DNA of 26,314 bases, from the IMG/VR virus record IMGVR_UViG_3300037486_000325, positions 1 through 26,314 of that record. The stretch is one strand, 5' to 3'. Source of the DNA: a virus. Below the pieces are notes generated by a model. It was not told where the DNA came from, searched no databases, and saw only the letters and a list, made by a program, of their open reading frames with translations. The translations under genes were made by a program, and so were the position numbers. This document shows positions 11,576 to 26,314 of this stretch, in pieces (position 1 is the stretch's first letter; every line of letters begins with the position of its first letter).

Positions 11576-11905
11576 ATGGATTTTGAGAATGTCGAATATA
11601 TTAAAAATTATGACGGGGACACCATAACTGTCAACATATCAAACGTGCACCCCCTCCTAGGTCACGCTGTACCTGTTCGTGTTCGAGGGGTTGATACCGA
11701 GGAGATGAAGAGTCACACCGAACTCTCGTACAAATCCAAGATGTATGTTGAGCGAATAATGAGAGGTGCGACAACCATCACGCTCCGGAACTGCGAACGG
11801 TGTAAGTATTTTCGGATTGTTGCTGATGTGATGGTAGATGGGCGGTCACTAGCGGAGTTGCTCATAAAAAACGGGTATTCCAAATCTATGAAATACCCGA
11901 AGTAA
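11576..11905 (+). CDS. Staphylococcal-nuclease-like (thermonuclease) protein
   Basis: This is a 109-residue protein starting at ATG 11576 behind GGGGGG. It carries YDGDT (residues 12-16), then VRVRGVDTEEM, giving Arg35, Asp40 and Glu43 at the same numbers as in staphylococcal nuclease. Further on, CKYFRIVADVMVDGRSLAELL supplies the second catalytic Arg (Arg80). Thus all key residues (Asp15, Arg35, Asp40, Glu43, Arg80) are present and the enzyme is probably an active Ca-dependent nuclease. No signal peptide is visible, so it acts in the infected cell, perhaps on host DNA. It is shorter than the secreted family members and stands alone on the plus strand. Confidence 0.85.
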   Translation: MDFENVEYIKNYDGDTITVNISNVHPLLGHAVPVRVRGVDTEEMKSHTELSYKSKMYVERIMRGATTITLRNCERCKYFRIVADVMVDGRSLAELLIKNGYSKSMKYPK

Positions 11906-17913: not shown

Positions 17914-18636
17914 ATGAAAAAGTCACCAACCACCGCACCAGCACCCGTTATCGCAGACAACAGCATAGCAACGTATCTCCAAGAGGCAGCATTGTTAAGG
18001 TTCGTCACCCCCGAGGCACAAAACGCATACGTCAGTGCTAGGTTCGATGGTGCCCAAATTGTGGCCGCAGGTGCAGTTGCTAGGGATGTGGACGCAAAAC
18101 AAGCGGAGGTTAAACCAGAACCCAAGAAAGCAGCGGTCAAAGCGAAAGCCGAACCCAAGAAAGCGGTCAAAGCGAAAGCCGAACCTAAGAAAGCCGAACC
18201 CAAGAAAGCGGCCAAAGCGAAAGCCGAACCTAAGAAAGCAGCGGCCAAAGCGGAGGTCAAGCCAGAACCTAAGAAAGCAGCGGCCAAAGCGAAAGCCGAA
18301 CCTAAGAAAGCAGCGGCCAAAGCGAAAGCCGAACCTAAGAAAGCAGCGGCCAAAGCGAAAGCCGAACCCACACAGCTAGCACAGCCCAAGGTGTGGAACT
18401 TTCAGAAAGTCAAAGCGAAAGCCGAACCCGAGAAAGCAGCGGTCAAGCCAGAACCTAAGAAAGCGGAGGTCAAAGCCAAACCAATACCAGCTGCAGTCTC
18501 CCTAGCCAAAGCGGAGGCAGCAAAAAACCTCTCGTGTCCATTTAACTCGGGCAATGCCTGTCAAGGGGACAAGTGTGCTCTGTGGGTGGGTTCGATGTGC
18601 TCTTTTCGGTTCCTGTTTTTTATCGGGGAAAAGTAA
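17914..18636 (+). CDS. Histone-H1-like Lys/Ala/Pro/Glu repeat protein with Cys4 tail
   Basis: This is a 240-residue protein with three parts. Residues 1-65 are a non-repetitive head (NSIATYLQEAALLRFVTPEA, then AYVSARFDGAQIVAAG). Residues about 66-190 are tandem units such as KAKAEPKKAAA and KPEPKKA, giving a very basic, extended region like histone H1 tails or bacterial H1-like proteins. The C terminus has CPFNSGNACQGDKCALWVGS followed by MC, i.e. C-x7-C-x4-C-x7-C, a likely metal-binding knuckle. The start is ATG 17914 behind CAAGGAGCAAACT. It probably binds DNA or RNA through the basic region. The repeat DNA shows near-identical 33-bp units, so length may vary between strains. Confidence 0.8.
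   Translation: MKKSPTTAPAPVIADNSIATYLQEAALLRFVTPEAQNAYVSARFDGAQIVAAGAVARDVDAKQAEVKPEPKKAAVKAKAEPKKAVKAKAEPKKAEPKKAAKAKAEPKKAAAKAEVKPEPKKAAAKAKAEPKKAAAKAKAEPKKAAAKAKAEPTQLAQPKVWNFQKVKAKAEPEKAAVKPEPKKAEVKAKPIPAAVSLAKAEAAKNLSCPFNSGNACQGDKCALWVGSMCSFRFLFFIGEK
18111..18480 (+). repeat. In-frame coding tandem repeat (33-bp and shorter units)
   Basis: The unit AAAGCGAAAGCCGAACC-TAAGAAAGCAGCGGCC (33 bp) occurs back to back twice perfectly from 18288, with partial and variant units on both sides. It encodes KAKAEPKKAAA. Units differ by whole codons, as expected of slippage or unequal recombination. Confidence 0.85.
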
Positions 18637-19616: not shown

Positions 19617-19648
19617 TCAAACAAGACAAGTTCAACCGGAGGAACCCG

Positions 19649-20944
19649 ATGAAATATTATGGTAGCCCACGCTGGACGGGAGAGATATTGGATTGCTCTA
19701 TGCCCGTCACCCTCGATACATACAACAAGTGCTCTTATAATTGCCTGTATTGCTTTTCGTTTTTCCAAAAATCCCACAGTATGGGCAAAGGGGGAACCCG
19801 AAAAAAGGATACAACCGAATATTCCTACCAAGGCGAGGACATATGTTGGATAAATCCCAAGCAAATAGAGCGAATGGTGTCACTAGACCCAACCCTAGGT
19901 GCGGGGGAACTCCAGTTTGAGTCATATTTTCGTGACCGAAAGGTTATTCAATGGGGAGGATTGGCCGACCAATTTGACGAATACGAGAGAAAACATGGAA
20001 TCACCCTAGAGGTTCTGAAGATATTCAAGCAATTTGACTATCCTATCTGCTTTTCCACCAAGGCAACGTGGTGGGTTTATGATGAGAGGTATCGGGAGCT
20101 ATTCCGGGGACAGAAAAATTGGAACGTCAAGATATCCATTATCAATCTCGATGAAACGAGAGCCAAGCGAATGGAAAAGGGGGTTGACTCTCCCCTCCAA
20201 AGATTGGCCGCAATGAAGGAACTCACATCACTAGGGATAGGAGGGGTCACCTTGCGGTTGCGTCCATTCATTATCGGGTTCACGAACCGAAAAAATGAGC
20301 ACCTCGAACTTATCCGGCTGGCAAAGGAAAACGGAGCAACAGCGGTCTCCACGGAGTTCTTTTGCCTTGAGGCAAGAGCAGACGATAAACTGAAGGAAAG
20401 ATACACCCGGATGAGCAACCTTGTCGGGTTCGACATTTATGAGTTCTATAGGACACAAAGCAAGGGTGCCGGATATCGCAGGCTCAATTATGCTATCAAG
20501 GAAAAGTTCGTCAACGAGATGCAGGAGGAGTGCGACAAGCTAGGTATGAGGTTTTATGTCTCCGATGCACATCACAAGGAGCGTTGCCCGAACGGGAGCT
20601 GTTGCGGTCTCGATGATTCGTGGAACTATTCCCGGGGGCAGTTCACCGAGGCACTAGTGATAGCGAAAAACAAGGGGAAAGTTCTTTTCAGTGACATCGA
20701 ACCCCATCTAGAGATGTATAAAAAATTCCAGTGGTGTCGAGCAACGGGGTTTAACACCTCGACTATGGCTGAAACCAGCCGGAGATATTACACCATGTAT
20801 GATTATTTTCGAGAGATTTGGAACAGCCCAAATTCCGCAAAAAGCCCATACAAATATTTTTCCGGTGTGCTCTATCCGATAGGATTGGACGAACAGAAAA
20901 ACGTCATTTATGAGTTCCGTCAACCCACTGACATACCCGGCTGA
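19649..20944 (+). CDS. Radical SAM protein 1 (SPL-like CX3CX2C)
   Basis: This is a 431-residue protein starting at ATG 19649 with CCGGAGGAACCCG in front; the longer frame upstream has only a TTG and crosses the promoter. NKCSYNCLYCFSFF (Cys28, Cys32, Cys35) is the canonical cluster motif that binds the 4Fe-4S and SAM. Later come IQWGGLADQFDEYE, YPICFSTKATW and GGVTLRLRPFIIGF, consistent with the radical-SAM barrel strands. The C-terminal half has more Cys (HHKERCPNGSCCGLDDSW), maybe an auxiliary cluster. It overlaps the convergent kinase gene by 41 bases. In the context of the modification operon it may act on the amino acid attached to the base; spore-photoproduct-lyase-like repair of DNA is another option. 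Confidence 0.85.
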   Translation: MKYYGSPRWTGEILDCSMPVTLDTYNKCSYNCLYCFSFFQKSHSMGKGGTRKKDTTEYSYQGEDICWINPKQIERMVSLDPTLGAGELQFESYFRDRKVIQWGGLADQFDEYERKHGITLEVLKIFKQFDYPICFSTKATWWVYDERYRELFRGQKNWNVKISIINLDETRAKRMEKGVDSPLQRLAAMKELTSLGIGGVTLRLRPFIIGFTNRKNEHLELIRLAKENGATAVSTEFFCLEARADDKLKERYTRMSNLVGFDIYEFYRTQSKGAGYRRLNYAIKEKFVNEMQEECDKLGMRFYVSDAHHKERCPNGSCCGLDDSWNYSRGQFTEALVIAKNKGKVLFSDIEPHLEMYKKFQWCRATGFNTSTMAETSRRYYTMYDYFREIWNSPNSAKSPYKYFSGVLYPIGLDEQKNVIYEFRQPTDIPG

Positions 20945-21467
20945 AAACCAACTCCTGTTCTAGTTCGGTATTGTTCGACATGAGCTGAATATCGTCCGGG
21001 AACTCGGAGATGATGTTGTTGTACTTGGTTTTCCTCCCCTTGAGGAACTTATCTGATTGGGTGTCGTTCCGTTGGGTGTGTCTATCGGCTAGGGTGGTGT
21101 CGTTCGCTTGTAGGAGGATGAAGTGAGACACATACTTTTCCATCAATTCCCGAATACATTTGGCGTTGAATAGCCGGTCACCCTCGAATAGAACTGTGTA
21201 CCCGTCATAGCACTGGTTCTTGTTAATCATTTTCAGAAAGTTAAAAAATACCGGCTGGACTGCCATGGAAAGTTTATCGGTTCCCCCAAATAAACTGTCG
21301 TCATAAATCCCGGCTACAATCATCTTGCTCTTTTCACTCATCATCCCACGGAAAACCTGATAATGGAATGTCCTCCGGACATCATAGAGTTCTATCAATC
21401 TCCGGAACAATGTCGTTTTTCCAGTTGCCGGCTCACCGCCCACTCCAATAACAGATTTTATGCCCAT
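20904..21467 (-). CDS. P-loop kinase, putative 5-hydroxymethyl-dU DNA kinase
   Basis: This is a 187-residue protein. I start at ATG 21467 (AGGGGA 6 nt upstream), which overlaps the stop of the transferase gene by 10 bases; a longer frame is an artefact. The P-loop is GGEPATGKTT (residues 10-19). Later features are FRGMMSEKSKMIVAGIYDDS, VLFEGDRLFN (a Walker-B-like Asp/Glu strand) and HTQRNDTQSDKFLKGRKTKY (lid Arg residues). The size and neighbourhood fit the kinases that phosphorylate 5-hydroxymethyluracil in phage DNA, giving the activated base used by the amino acid:DNA transferase encoded just upstream in the operon. Substrate identity is inferred from context. Confidence 0.8.
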   Translation of the reverse strand: MGIKSVIGVGGEPATGKTTLFRRLIELYDVRRTFHYQVFRGMMSEKSKMIVAGIYDDSLFGGTDKLSMAVQPVFFNFLKMINKNQCYDGYTVLFEGDRLFNAKCIRELMEKYVSHFILLQANDTTLADRHTQRNDTQSDKFLKGRKTKYNNIISEFPDDIQLMSNNTELEQELVFSRVCQWVDGTHK

Positions 21468-22336
21468 ACTATCTCCCCTGTGTTCATGTAAATTGCCTTT
21501 CGTTCTTTCCGAACCCCAACCCAACCTCGGAGTTCACCCAAATACTCCCGGGGAAAACACTCCCGTCTAGCATCCCAGTATATATTGGGGAGACCTGCGA
21601 TGTCCTCCATCTGTTTATCGATATCATGGCCCACATAATAGCCACCTTTGGCCATCGAGTTGAAATCACATAGAGATGTCTCCAACTCCTCTAGGCCATC
21701 AAATGGAATACATTTCTGGGAGCAATACAAATAGAAAATTTTCTGGAGATGAAAGTCAACGGCACATATCTCCGGTGCTCTCCCGGTCAGTCTAGAGAGA
21801 CCGGGGACTGGTCCAACAACCTTTCCCCCACCCCCTAGTCCAATGTCCGGAGAGGTGATGTCATAACCTAGAACGTTCTTACAAAGGTCACACCACTTGA
21901 ACGCAGCCCACGAACCGTTCCCCGGAATTTGCTGAACCGCGTTGTACATTGACTTCCAACCGGCCATTCCCCCTAGAGCAACGTGGCGTTCAACCCACTC
22001 TAGGAGGTCACCGATATTCTGATACATCCAATTCAGTTGCTCGACACCCTTATTGGAACCACGAATACCACGCCTTTCAACCCCGGTTTTCAAGATAAAC
22101 TCAGCGTCAATTTTACACTGTTGAGGATAGCTTTTCCAAACAGTCTCGCCACTCCCTAGATTGTACCAAGTCATATAGAGGAGCGTGTGCCACGCTGCAT
22201 CTCCCTTCGACAACCCCCGGAGTTGGTGCACCGTCTTGAGAACGGGATACACTGGGTCAATATCTCGGGAATGGAGTTGGTGGAGGGAAAAGGTTTTGAA
22301 ATCCTCGAACAACTTTGGTCTCACGGGAACTTTCAT
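21458..22336 (-). CDS. Amino acid:DNA transferase-like protein (aGPT-PPlase family)
   Basis: This is a 292-residue protein. It begins at ATG 22336, sharing ATGA with the stop of the radical-SAM gene. The N terminus HQLHSRDIDPVYPVLKTVHQ followed by WHTLLYMTWYNLGSGE, and the helix-hairpin-helix-like centre ERRGIRGSNKGVEQLNWM, then IPGNGSWAAFKWCDLCKNVL and DITSPDIGLGGGGKVVGPVP, match what I know of the predicted glutamyl/putrescinyl-thymine pyrophosphorylase family, now shown to install amino acids on phosphorylated 5-hmdU. A later conserved-looking stretch is APEICAVDFHLQKIFYLY. It should act on DNA after replication, together with the kinase encoded right behind it. Which amino acid it uses cannot be read from the sequence. 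Confidence 0.8.
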   Translation of the reverse strand: MKVPVRPKLFEDFKTFSLHQLHSRDIDPVYPVLKTVHQLRGLSKGDAAWHTLLYMTWYNLGSGETVWKSYPQQCKIDAEFILKTGVERRGIRGSNKGVEQLNWMYQNIGDLLEWVERHVALGGMAGWKSMYNAVQQIPGNGSWAAFKWCDLCKNVLGYDITSPDIGLGGGGKVVGPVPGLSRLTGRAPEICAVDFHLQKIFYLYCSQKCIPFDGLEELETSLCDFNSMAKGGYYVGHDIDKQMEDIAGLPNIYWDARRECFPREYLGELRGWVGVRKERKAIYMNTGEIVWA

Positions 22337-23754
22337 TCATACCCCCAATGGCTTTTATTGTAGTCGGCTGACCCAAGTGCCGGTGCTTTGTATAGCATAT
22401 CCACCTTACACGGTGGACCACCGGGGTTGGTCTCCTCGCAATATAAGCAGCCGCAAGGTGGGCAACCTTTAAATGGTCGGAACTTGTCGTTGACCTTAAC
22501 ATACAACGGGGAACGCTGGCCGTGACACTGGTCTCCTGTACAGAACTCTCTCCCTAGGGAGGTTCCCGTTTTGTTTAGGATGTTGCCCTTGCCGTCCCGG
22601 TCATATCCATACTCATAACATAGTCCCATCGTGATTCCGGCTTTCTGAGTTTCACGCTTGAAGAGTTCTAGGGAGGCAACCCGGTATTTTTCGTTGATGG
22701 TTCGCATGCCGCCCATGTTTTCTGTGAAGAGAGATTTAAAACGTTCCACTCTATCGGGGAACAACTTGCCCATTTTCCGAATCATAGCAGGAACCGAGGG
22801 GGAGACAATTTCAACGAACTTGAAAATGACGTGATTGGCTCCGGCTTTGGCTAGTTCGTGGATGAGACCAACCACGTTTTCGTTTTCGATGATACCGGCT
22901 ATGATGGGGTTGACCTGGATAGATACATAAATGCCCATCTTTCTCTGTTCGGTTATCATCTTCAGAATATCATCTAGGTCGGCAGCTCCCGGGGACATCT
23001 TTTTGTAGTCGGTTCTGTCGTTCGTGATGATAGAATATTGCTGGTATGAGTGTTTATTTTTTAGGAGGTTCTGAATTGCCCAATCCGGTGGGATTTGTCG
23101 AGTCAGATAGAACAGAGGCAACCCATAGTCCACGATGTACTTGGACAGCCGTTCGGTGTTGTGGTAGCGTTCTTCAATTTTCTGGAACGGTTCGGTGAAA
23201 GAACTCACATAGGCATTCCATCCGAACTTCATCTTGTCGAGTTGGGCCTTCACTTTTTCCGGATAGGTCGGATCAACCACCGTGATGCCTTGTCCCCGAT
23301 ATCCTCGAATGCCGTTATTCACATAACAGAATACGCAACGAACCGGACACGAACCCCCGTATGGTTGGGTGAGGAGTGCCTCGGTGAAACATGGTCTCGC
23401 ACGAACCCGTTCCGGTTCATATTTGGATTTGTACCATCCTCGGAGGGGAACGTTTTGATCTAGGATAACGTGGGGAGCAGGATCAAGGAAAACCTTCATC
23501 TTTTTCTTGTTCGCATCCTTTGCGTTGCGAACCATTCCGATATCCCACCACTCATATCTCAGCCCGTCCTCAATTCCACCCTTTTCCCGGGTGTGAGATT
23601 CATTATCTAGAAAGTCATCATAGCCCGTTTCACCCTCGGTCTGTTTATCTTTCTCAACCCACGCTGGACAAGCCAATTGGGTCACATCGCTCTCATACCT
23701 GTTACAGATTTTGCTGTTGTAACAGTCCACGCAATATCTTTTTTCCACGGTCAT
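22333..23754 (-). CDS. Radical SAM protein 2 with extra Cys clusters
   Basis: This is a 473-residue protein from ATG 23754, which shares ATGA with the stop of the PLP gene. A GTG at 23748 has the better spacing (GGAG seven bases upstream) and could be the real start; an upstream TTG lacks a ribosome-binding site. An N-terminal Cys set (Cys8, 11, 17, 29) precedes the canonical GGSCPVRCVFCYVNNG (Cys136, 140, 143). Barrel segments include YVSSFTEPFQKIEE, YVSIQVNPIIAGIIE and HVIFKFVEIVSPSVP. The C-terminal part holds FCTGDQCHG and CPPCGCLYCEE with a further Cys, suggesting one or two auxiliary Fe-S or zinc sites. It differs strongly from radical-SAM protein 1. Role by context: a carbon-skeleton or H-abstraction step on the DNA-bound (or free) amino acid. 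Confidence 0.87.
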   Translation of the reverse strand: MTVEKRYCVDCYNSKICNRYESDVTQLACPAWVEKDKQTEGETGYDDFLDNESHTREKGGIEDGLRYEWWDIGMVRNAKDANKKKMKVFLDPAPHVILDQNVPLRGWYKSKYEPERVRARPCFTEALLTQPYGGSCPVRCVFCYVNNGIRGYRGQGITVVDPTYPEKVKAQLDKMKFGWNAYVSSFTEPFQKIEERYHNTERLSKYIVDYGLPLFYLTRQIPPDWAIQNLLKNKHSYQQYSIITNDRTDYKKMSPGAADLDDILKMITEQRKMGIYVSIQVNPIIAGIIENENVVGLIHELAKAGANHVIFKFVEIVSPSVPAMIRKMGKLFPDRVERFKSLFTENMGGMRTINEKYRVASLELFKRETQKAGITMGLCYEYGYDRDGKGNILNKTGTSLGREFCTGDQCHGQRSPLYVKVNDKFRPFKGCPPCGCLYCEETNPGGPPCKVDMLYKAPALGSADYNKSHWGYE

Positions 23755-24563
23755 GCTCCTATATTCCAAAATAATATTTTCCCGTCAATCCTAGGTGCGT
23801 TCTTTCCGAGCCACTTCCACGCTTTCAAGTCATAATACTTGTTACACGGGAACGGACAGGGTGAATCCACTGCATCCTTGTATCCATATCCCTCGTCAAC
23901 GAACGTCAATTTGATTTTCCCGAACTCCCCGACCTTCGACAATAGATATTTTTTAATTGCCGTTTCAGGTCGGCTGTACCCCATGTGGATAATGAGGTTC
24001 ACTTCAGCCATCCTCCGCACGAGACCTAGCAGAACCCCCGCACCTATCGTTCCGGAACTCACCGATACAACCCAAGTGGTGTCTCGCATAAATTCATCCG
24101 GAATAGAACTCACTTCACTAGCAGTCTCATCCACGCTCTCGATAAGTTTCAGAGCATTGGGCATCATATATGAGTCAGAAAAATTATGAGCCAATAGTTT
24201 TTTCGCGGTGTGGTACAAGATACAACTGCGACCAGCCGGAATACCCTTCAAGGTGGCACCCAACCGCTTGGCATTCATCTGAGGTTCCCGGAGGTACAAC
24301 TCACTTTTATATTGGGGATAGAAAACGACAACCCTCTTGCCCATCGCTCCCCCGATATGTGAGCAACCCCAACCGGCTTTCGAGTGATAGCTGTCTAGAA
24401 CACCAATCCACTTTTCCCTCCGGGTGAGGAGGTGGCTGTACACTCCTCGGAGCTTGCTGAAGTTGGCTTCATCAACGCATAAATCCTCTCGCTTCACCCA
24501 AACCTCACGACCACCTAGAGAGTACAACTCCAGAGGGGTTCCCGTCCTAACGAGGCAACTCAT
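23751..24563 (-). CDS. PLP-dependent enzyme, fold type II
   Basis: This is a 270-residue protein starting at ATG 24563 (GAGGG 5-6 nt upstream), overlapping the ParB-like gene by 17 bases. The sequence follows the tryptophan-synthase-beta / ACC-deaminase / D-cysteine-desulfhydrase layout: VWVKREDLCVDEANFSKLRG (Lys37 as the probable Schiff-base lysine), VLDSYHSKAGWGCSHIGGAM (substrate loop), VVVFYP, and SVSSGTIGAGVL (169-176, the phosphate-binding Gly-rich loop). It is shorter than housekeeping relatives (about 320-340). This fold mainly does beta-replacement or beta/gamma-elimination, not decarboxylation, so it would either make an unusual amino acid or modify one. Its reaction is not readable from sequence. 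Confidence 0.82.
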   Translation of the reverse strand: MSCLVRTGTPLELYSLGGREVWVKREDLCVDEANFSKLRGVYSHLLTRREKWIGVLDSYHSKAGWGCSHIGGAMGKRVVVFYPQYKSELYLREPQMNAKRLGATLKGIPAGRSCILYHTAKKLLAHNFSDSYMMPNALKLIESVDETASEVSSIPDEFMRDTTWVVSVSSGTIGAGVLLGLVRRMAEVNLIIHMGYSRPETAIKKYLLSKVGEFGKIKLTFVDEGYGYKDAVDSPCPFPCNKYYDLKAWKWLGKNAPRIDGKILFWNIGA

Positions 24564-25236
24564 CTTTTCCCTCTAGTGCTTGTGCGAACACCGTCCAACT
24601 AACTTTTCTAGCAGTTCCCGGAATAGACAACTTTTCTTTCACCTTTCGATATTGCTCTTCATCATCAAAGTACACAACGATGTACGGGGTTTTCTCGGGA
24701 ACCTCTCCCCCTAGGTCAACATTCGGCAGACTACCCTCCGCGACATCCGGGAGGTCATCCAACTCGACATCATCGAACTCTAGCCCATCGGTGTCTCGGA
24801 ACAGCTTGCCGAATGAGTCACGGTCGATATCGGAAAACGCAAAGTCATCGATGTCCCCTAGGTCCAAATCCTCGGAACGCATGAACTCTAGCAGACTAGC
24901 GGAGGTCATCTTGCCGAACTGAGAGGTCAGAGCCAACACAATCTTTTTTGCCTCTTTTCGATCTTTCGCCTTAACAATACTCACCGGGATAGGGGGAACC
25001 TTTACACCCTCGGTCTCCATTCGCTTAAGTGCCTTGATCCGTTGGTGCCCGTTCAATATGTTATCCTTCCAGATAACCACCGGCTCACAGAACCCTAGTG
25101 TCAAAAGATCATTTTTCAACCGTTGATAGTTTTCCTCGCTCAACGCTTTCAACTCGCCTTGGAACTCCTCTAGGGTGTGGATGTCTCGAACCTCTGTGCC
25201 CTCGCACTTAATTGCTACTTTCGCTGTAAAGCCCAT
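24547..25236 (-). CDS. ParB/Srx-fold protein of the modification operon
   Basis: This is a 229-residue protein from ATG 25236. The N-terminal ParB-like domain (about residues 20-110) has LEEFQGELKALSEENYQRL, then FCEPVVIWKDNILNGHQRIK, where NGHQR takes the place of the GxRR nucleotide-binding box. A long acidic middle (DDLPDVAEGSLPNVDLGG and neighbours) leads to a small C-terminal domain starting TPYIVVYFDDEEQYRKVKEK. There is no helix-turn-helix of the chromosome-partition type and no ParA partner. Members of this fold can be nucleases, CTPases or free-serine kinases (SbnI, SerK). As first gene of the operon and neighbour of a PLP enzyme, a nucleotide-dependent amino-acid kinase is attractive but unproved; a DNA-binding accessory role is equally possible. 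Confidence 0.75.
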   Translation of the reverse strand: MGFTAKVAIKCEGTEVRDIHTLEEFQGELKALSEENYQRLKNDLLTLGFCEPVVIWKDNILNGHQRIKALKRMETEGVKVPPIPVSIVKAKDRKEAKKIVLALTSQFGKMTSASLLEFMRSEDLDLGDIDDFAFSDIDRDSFGKLFRDTDGLEFDDVELDDLPDVAEGSLPNVDLGGEVPEKTPYIVVYFDDEEQYRKVKEKLSIPGTARKVSWTVFAQALEGKDELPR

Positions 25237-26042: not shown

Positions 26043-26117
26043 TACATTTAACTTTTCTACATTTAACTTTTCTACATTTAACTTTTCTACATTTAACTTT
26101 TATACATTTAACTTTTC
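26043..26117. repeat. Five tandem 15-bp iterons
   Basis: TACATTTAACTTTTC is repeated five times head to tail (26043, 26058, 26073, 26088, 26103); unit four ends in A instead of C, and a sixth unit starts at 26118 but breaks after five bases. It is non-coding. Such arrays serve as initiator- or regulator-binding iterons in replication origins or as recognition sites; here no initiator gene is adjacent within the window. Confidence 0.85.
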
Positions 26118-26314
26118 TACATATTGGTCATGTCTGTCTAGGTTCTGTGTCCTAGGTTATGGGTCTCTGGTCTAGGAGAGGAGGAGATAGGTTGTCTGTT
26201 ATATGGTCGATGGGCTATTGGTTGATTGGTCGGTAGTCTATTGGATAGTACAGATCTGGAATTGTGAATCTAATTGGAAATTGGTAGATGTCTTGTTACT
26301 GGTTTATTGATTTA
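26118..26314. other. G-over-C-skewed non-coding right edge
   Basis: In 26161-26280 I count 41 G and 11 C on the plus strand, with short degenerate words such as CTATTGG, GATTGG and GGTCGGTAG. No gene is visible. The second copy of the 15-mer TACTGGTTTATTGAT lies at 26297-26311, suggesting that another promoter region begins just past the edge. Confidence 0.5.

Follow-up and report, generated by a model that had tools for sequence, protein, structure and literature searches.

Pseudomonas phage M6 carries genes for an amino acid:DNA transferase (ADDT, gp51), a pyridoxal phosphate (PLP) enzyme (gp52), a radical S-adenosylmethionine (SAM) protein (gp53) and a DNA kinase (gp54) in a single cluster, and its 5-hydroxymethyldeoxyuridine (5-hmdU) is obtained via a thymidylate synthase (TS) homologue, gp58, that is encoded nearby. 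The steps after the kinase, said to have been described by Lee et al. in 2022, are reportedly glycine transfer, radical SAM isomerisation and PLP decarboxylation. M6 DNA includes 5-(2-aminoethyl)deoxyuridine (5-(2-aminoethyl)dU), which is made via 5-hmdU and a 5-hmdU DNA kinase (PMC6449724). In the actinophages Tonitrus, Phelemich, Kozie and MakoManhole, the operon has the form ParB-TET/JBP-ADDT-kinase, and the gene set of Tonitrus was called a thymine hypermodification system by its authors (PMC11955845). A cluster with features of both types was found at positions 19649-25236 of the virus record IMGVR_UViG_3300037486_000325 (26,314 bases; this whole stretch is referred to as the window), which is probably a genome fragment. 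The cluster includes two radical SAM genes, rSAM1 and rSAM2. The reading preferred here, with a probability of roughly 0.65, is that it directs an M6-type thymidine hypermodification in which the first step is performed by a radical SAM enzyme, rSAM2, instead of a TS-type hydroxymethylase or a TET/JBP enzyme.

Gene content of the cluster

Five tightly overlapping minus-strand genes, in the order ParB, PLP, rSAM1, ADDT and kinase, form an operon (25236-20904 by open reading frame (ORF) coordinates) that is faced by the rSAM2 gene. The same arrangement had been outlined in a preliminary description made from the letters of this DNA, and all six ORFs are present at the positions given there:

24547..25236, minus strand, ParB/Srx-fold protein, operon gene 1 (ATG at 25236, stop at 24547)
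23751..24563, minus strand, PLP enzyme, fold-type II (17-bp overlap with the ParB gene)
22333..23769, minus strand, rSAM1 (TTG start, or ATG at 23754)
21458..22336, minus strand, ADDT of the aGPT-Pplase2 type (4-bp ATGA overlap with rSAM1)
20904..21467, minus strand, P-loop kinase (10-bp overlap with ADDT)
19649..20944, plus strand, rSAM2, the second radical SAM protein (convergent on the operon)
19638..19642, plus strand, Shine-Dalgarno sequence GGAGG (6 nt 5' of the rSAM2 ATG, read directly)
20904..20944, region shared by the convergent kinase and rSAM2 genes at their 3' ends (41 bp, from ORF coordinates)

The gene set of the operon was seen again in independent contigs (L040/L107, L109, L110, L112 and L114), and thus is not a chance assembly.

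The PLP enzyme is 47% identical to M6 gp52 over 277 aa and matches phrog_7093 (E 6e-66) and, below the Pfam cut-off, PALP (E 6.6e-7). rSAM1 is 43% identical to gp53 over 456 aa, matches phrog_9252 (E 4.6e-116) and has CPVRCVFC as its CX3CX2C motif. Both radical SAM proteins match the Radical_SAM model below the Pfam cut-off (5e-4 and 2e-4), and an rSAM1 profile searched against PDB sequences gave spurious matches or none. A Cys-rich N-terminal extension of rSAM1 (CVDCYNSKICNRYESDVTQLACPAW; window 23640-23754, minus strand), possibly a zinc-binding tail, is not present in gp53 or in rSAM1 of contig L040.

The ADDT passes the PF18724 cut-off (27.2 bits versus 26.2, E 3.9e-6), matches phrog_6364 (E 2e-24) and includes the motif DIDPVYPVL. 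Its family profile matches PDB entries 25qc ('Amino acid:DNA transferase') and 8z2m ('Glycinyltransferase', E 1e-4). It shares 53-55% identity with the ADDTs of contigs L107 and L112, 44% with that of the TET-type contig L111 and 34% with those of Tonitrus and Phelemich. The kinase, with the P-loop GGEPATGKTT, is 36% identical to its L111 counterpart and matches the Tonitrus and Phelemich kinases (E 1e-9 and 2e-6, respectively). Its Pfam matches are all below cut-off (AAA_18, E 7.8e-6; Ploopntkinase3, E 4.6e-5). Both proteins are distant from those of M6: the ADDT is 21% identical to gp51, and the kinase has no BLAST match in M6, though its family profile reaches gp54 (E 5e-9).

These matches bear out the proposal in the preliminary description that this is a thymidine-hypermodification cluster, and the motifs cited there for the kinase, the ADDT and both SAM proteins (CSYNCLYC in rSAM2) were all read directly. 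The transferase was found to belong to such a family, though to PF18724 and not to PF18723 as had been written. For 20904-21467, the candidate 5-hmdU DNA kinase, the support comes from its relationship to the kinases of ADDT operons and gp54. The suggestion that the tailoring enzymes might yield an undescribed final base was dropped, as PLP and rSAM1 are an M6-type pair. Since these two proteins are related to gp52 and gp53 and the operon is the M6 set, the end base in the phage represented by the window is predicted to be the 5-(2-aminoethyl)dU of M6. The tailoring core would thus already be known from M6, and the use of rSAM2 in place of TS or TET would be what is new.

The ParB protein and rSAM2 are both absent from M6. 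The ParB protein matches phrog_620, phrog_723 and phrog_498 (E 1e-9 to 2e-15). As the Pfam ParB_N model is too insensitive for these proteins, a home-made profile was used, which groups the window protein with the gene 1 products of the TET-type actinophages (E 1e-31 or better) and finds no match in M6. Its probable role is in DNA targeting, or as an accessory factor, during post-replicative thymine modification. The four actinophage operons resemble the window in having ParB as the first gene (three of four as annotated), ADDT, kinase and a post-replicative logic. They differ in using an O2-dependent TET/JBP enzyme, in lacking any annotated radical SAM or PLP gene next to the transferase, and in having no rSAM2 match.

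First-step genes and the rSAM2 family

A TS-type hydroxymethylase was not found in the 26-kb window, itself a fragment, or in any of 40 whole records with rSAM2. TET/JBP (PF12851) was likewise absent from the 40 records and from 11 GTDB genomes with rSAM2, using a model that recovered the four TET-positive actinophages (4/4) and was negative for M6; none of the six cluster proteins of the window has a TET/JBP Pfam match. Flavin-dependent ThyX was set aside as a candidate hydroxymethylase, being present in only 1 of 38 rSAM2 records.

M6-type loci were counted from rSAM1. A scan of viral contigs with the single ADDT sequence gave nine stretches that fit the pattern and no relatives, and the ADDT alignment was too diverse for a pattern scan. 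Among 48 records with rSAM1, TS is present in 31 and rSAM2 in five, and no record has both. A sixth rSAM2 match (G052) was that record's own rSAM1 and was left out. TET was found in two of the 17 records without TS. At the level of 80 rSAM1 loci, TS occurs in 40, TET in five and rSAM2 in five, with two together in none. When records of 40 kb or more are counted, TS is found in 0/20 with rSAM2 versus 25/28 rSAM1 records without rSAM2 (Fisher p ~1e-10, ignoring relatedness); the tests across the replacement comparisons, which also ignore relatedness, gave p values from 1e-8 to 1e-13. ParB follows the same division, accompanying nine of ten TET or rSAM2 loci versus none of 40 TS loci.

The replacement also occurs in place. 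Metagenomic M6-type clusters with TET (L111, L113, L117, L136 and L159) have the tailoring set of the rSAM2 clusters, and TET stands where rSAM2 would be. Thus L109 has the order ParB-ADDT-PLP-rSAM1-kinase-rSAM2 and L111 the order ParB-ADDT-x-PLP-rSAM1-kinase-TET, with 62% identity between their rSAM1 and 44% between their PLP proteins. The kinase stop overlaps by 4 bp the start of rSAM2 in L112 and the start of TET in L113.

Beyond the M6-type loci, an alignment-based scan found rSAM2 relatives in 177 viral contigs, of which 80 were retrieved, and at 17 loci in GTDB genomes; there was no relative in 50,697 phage records. Sixteen of the 17 GTDB loci have full-length relatives, in 14 genomes. 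The carriers, to which host assignment is approximate as most are metagenome-assembled genomes (MAGs), are Bacteroides fragilis S82, Phocaeicola, Mediterranea, two Prevotella, two other Bacteroidaceae, Azobacteroides, Victivallales, Clostridia, Selenomonadaceae, Spirochaetaceae, a Bacteroidetes/Chlorobi MAG and a Patescibacteria MAG. Apart from the two named last, all come from lineages that are commonly known to be anaerobic. In B. fragilis S82, a ParB-ADDT-kinase-rSAM2 set lies in a prophage (~546-599 kb of its contig) that has host genes on both sides and an integrase-like gene near its end; neither TS nor TET was found in the 100 kb examined.

The neighbours in 96 rSAM2 loci are ParB, usually placed ahead of rSAM2 (79), P-loop kinases (53), ADDT (48), GNAT (37), SAM synthetase (27), TET-associated glycosyltransferase (TAGT, PF20691; 24) and GATase (7), with HAD/APH and cytidylyltransferases in a few loci each. 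ADDT and TAGT occur together in only one of the 96. rSAM2 heads TAGT clusters that have no amino-acid chemistry, and in L013 (6135-8231) and L018 (9197-11293) a single 698-aa ORF has an N-terminal TAGT domain fused to rSAM2. TAGT clusters in general combine ParB, a base-oxidising enzyme and TAGT; here rSAM2 takes the place of TET, and no rSAM2 record searched includes TET/JBP. The two tailoring types alternate across the rSAM2 tree, whose well-supported branches require at least 17 changes for ADDT and 16 for TAGT, and the three nearest relatives of the window rSAM2 are from one ADDT cluster and two TAGT clusters. The constant pair is therefore ParB and rSAM2, and the exchanged part the tailoring. 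This would be expected if rSAM2 acted upstream and made a hydroxylated base that both kinase/ADDT and glycosyltransferases could use. The SAM synthetase genes, which are unusual for phages, were confirmed by Pfam (e.g. L050:6417-7445 and L031:6456-7487).

The CX3CX2C motif of rSAM2 is invariant in 68 of 68 homologues, in which four further Cys residues (C16, C239, C318 and C319) are also invariant and may serve to bind an auxiliary cluster or to relay radicals. In L109 (4700-7282), an intein-like insertion follows directly after the last Cys of the motif (CIYC|ALRGTKIRMADGTTKPIENINIG...GEHPV), and rSAM2 resumes after ~6041. An AlphaFold model built from the 68-sequence alignment, which replaced a poor three-sequence model (predicted local distance difference test, pLDDT, of 59), has a pLDDT of 92.3 and a predicted template modelling score (pTM) of 0.91. 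Foldseek searches of the PDB with this model returned spore photoproduct lyase (SplB) at ranks 1-6 (E 6e-8 to 2.4e-7; TM score 0.56-0.57 on the target), followed by other radical SAM enzymes that were ~100-fold weaker. Spore photoproduct lyase acts on thymines in DNA via a thymine allylic radical (PMC5368176). SplB is the closest solved fold and shares the radical SAM CX3CX2C core. It differs from rSAM2 in sequence (~14% identity), and rSAM2 has the four extra invariant Cys, a C-terminal extension and a base-modification context in place of a repair context. A PDB sequence search with the rSAM2 profile did not find spore photoproduct lyase and gave spurious matches or none.

Proposed pathway and alternatives

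The comparative evidence and the modelled fold strongly suggest an O2-independent thymine-methyl hydroxylase role for rSAM2, with 5-hmdU in DNA as the product. For this step, both chemistry and sequence specificity, we infer the following. rSAM2, with SAM and a [4Fe-4S] cluster, would abstract hydrogen from the 5-methyl group of thymine in DNA, at sites perhaps chosen by the ParB/Srx protein, and the allylic radical would be oxidised and capture water to give 5-hmdU. The balance, SAM + H2O + T -> Met + 5'-deoxyadenosine + 5-hmdU, would be redox-neutral and O2-free. With one SAM consumed for every base, the demand would be in keeping with the phage-encoded SAM synthetases, whose location near rSAM2 is consistent with heavy SAM use. 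The later steps are transferred by homology from M6 and its relatives. The P-loop protein, a predicted 5-hmdU DNA kinase, would phosphorylate the base, and the ADDT is predicted to exchange the phosphate of phosphorylated 5-hmdU in DNA for an amino acid, probably glycine. rSAM1, a predicted isomerase of the attached glycine, would then rearrange the adduct, and the PLP enzyme, a predicted decarboxylase, would make the aminoethyl group of 5-(2-aminoethyl)dU.

Both types of tailoring, by ADDT and kinase or by TAGT, need a hydroxyl handle, which fits an upstream place for rSAM2. The preliminary description had counted rSAM2 as one more tailoring enzyme and proposed to look for a hydroxymethylase elsewhere in the genome. 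The comparative evidence instead puts rSAM2 at the first step, in the TET/JBP or TS position, which would explain why a hydroxymethylase is missing from the 26-kb fragment and from rSAM2 records generally.

Several observations weigh against this assignment. To our knowledge, hydroxylation of thymine in DNA has no precedent among radical SAM enzymes. The TM score of ~0.57 to spore photoproduct lyase is moderate, and the barrel is common to many radical SAM enzymes. In 30 of the 80 rSAM1 loci no first-step gene was seen within the stretch covered. ParB is not specific, being found with unrelated base-modification genes as well, among them CmoX (PMC12783734). Further points of this kind concern the incompleteness of the records, the relationship between the two radical SAM proteins and the presence of methyltransferase genes, and each of these bears on an alternative explanation.

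One alternative is that rSAM2 works downstream of the transferase or glycosyltransferase as a further tailoring enzyme in the manner of rSAM1, an isomerase or cyclase for instance, with 5-hmdU supplied by a TS-type hydroxymethylase encoded outside the fragment. The two radical SAM proteins are indeed distant homologues (hhalign 97.7%), rSAM2 lies outside the operon on the opposite strand in the window, and the window and most rSAM2 relatives are fragments, so that a TS gene could lie beyond their ends. Nevertheless, TS is lacking in all 40 rSAM2 records, 20 of which are at least 40 kb, and in all five that also carry rSAM1, and the intact-looking B. fragilis S82 prophage has neither TS nor TET. 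rSAM2 also heads glycosyltransferase clusters and occupies the TET position, and this explanation is considered unlikely.

Alternatively, rSAM2 may make a handle other than 5-hmdU in thymine DNA, by oxidising 5-methylcytosine (5mC), by using free nucleotides or by adding another group such as a thiol or a carbon unit. Phage TETs have been reported to act on 5mC, and some radical SAM enzymes insert sulfur. A C5-methyltransferase was found in five of the 40 rSAM2 records, a C5-methyltransferase-like gene lies between ParB and rSAM2 in L101, and another is within the B. fragilis S82 prophage; thus 5mC is a possible substrate in some phages. Against this, no C5-methyltransferase was found in the other 35 records, a hydroxyl is implied by the presence of kinase and TAGT genes, the window operon otherwise consists of the M6 thymidine set, and the best structural matches act on thymine. 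A different handle is considered unlikely. The third possibility, that rSAM2 is a passenger gene or repairs DNA lesions like an ordinary SplB-type enzyme, as its fold, its weak matches to the PA0069/Rv2578c radical SAM families of NCBIfam and its separate transcription in the window might suggest, is very improbable given its conserved clustering with ParB plus ADDT/kinase or TAGT in 96 loci, its fusion to TAGT and its strict alternation with TS and TET.

Other features of the window and implications

The remaining landmarks of the window, from Pfam and PHROG searches, are genes for a portal protein, terminase and NAD+-dependent ligase at the left and, in the middle, a gene for a UvrD-like helicase. 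A small staphylococcal-nuclease-like protein (VEYIKNYDGDTITVNI...VRVRGVDTEE; 11576-11905, plus strand), encoded between the ligase gene and the terminase-side genes, was spotted by eye only. A Lys/Ala/Pro/Glu repeat protein at 17914-18636, with AKAKAEPKKA units, a Cys-rich C-terminus and DNA repeat periods of 15 to 45 bases, had no family match. At the right end (26043-26122) there are 5.3 tandem copies of TACATTTAACTTTTC, which may be iterons or an origin. The tetranucleotide CTAG, as a rule rare in bacteria and phages, is strongly over-represented in the window, where its 158 copies (6 per kb) amount to 1.94 times the Markov expectation. It also reaches 6.2 per kb in L009, with zero copies in the L040 and L092 stretches; GCGC (0.16) and GATC (0.41) are depleted in the window. 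PADLOC gave a weak MTase_II match on the ParB protein as the sole defence-system match.

Literature searches, in which key primary papers were not covered, found no radical SAM replacement of TET; this is a weak sign of novelty, and an earlier mention is possible. If the proposed role of rSAM2 is true, it would represent a new enzyme activity, the anaerobic C-H hydroxylation of a base in DNA. rSAM2 may then serve as a marker for phages with modified DNA in anoxic metagenomes and possibly as an oxygen-free tool enzyme to hydroxymethylate DNA. For the family as a whole, it is considered fairly probable that a large, unannotated SplB-like radical SAM family in phages of anaerobes hydroxylates the methyl group of thymine, or perhaps of 5mC in some, in DNA without O2. 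This would be a third independent route to 5-hydroxymethylpyrimidines, beside the TS-type and TET/JBP routes, feeding both amino-acid and sugar hypermodifications. TET/JBP enzymes need O2, which posed the question of how 5-hydroxymethylpyrimidine DNA could arise after replication in phages of strict anaerobes. The rSAM2 route, if true, would answer this question and explain how such phages enter the same hypermodification chemistry.

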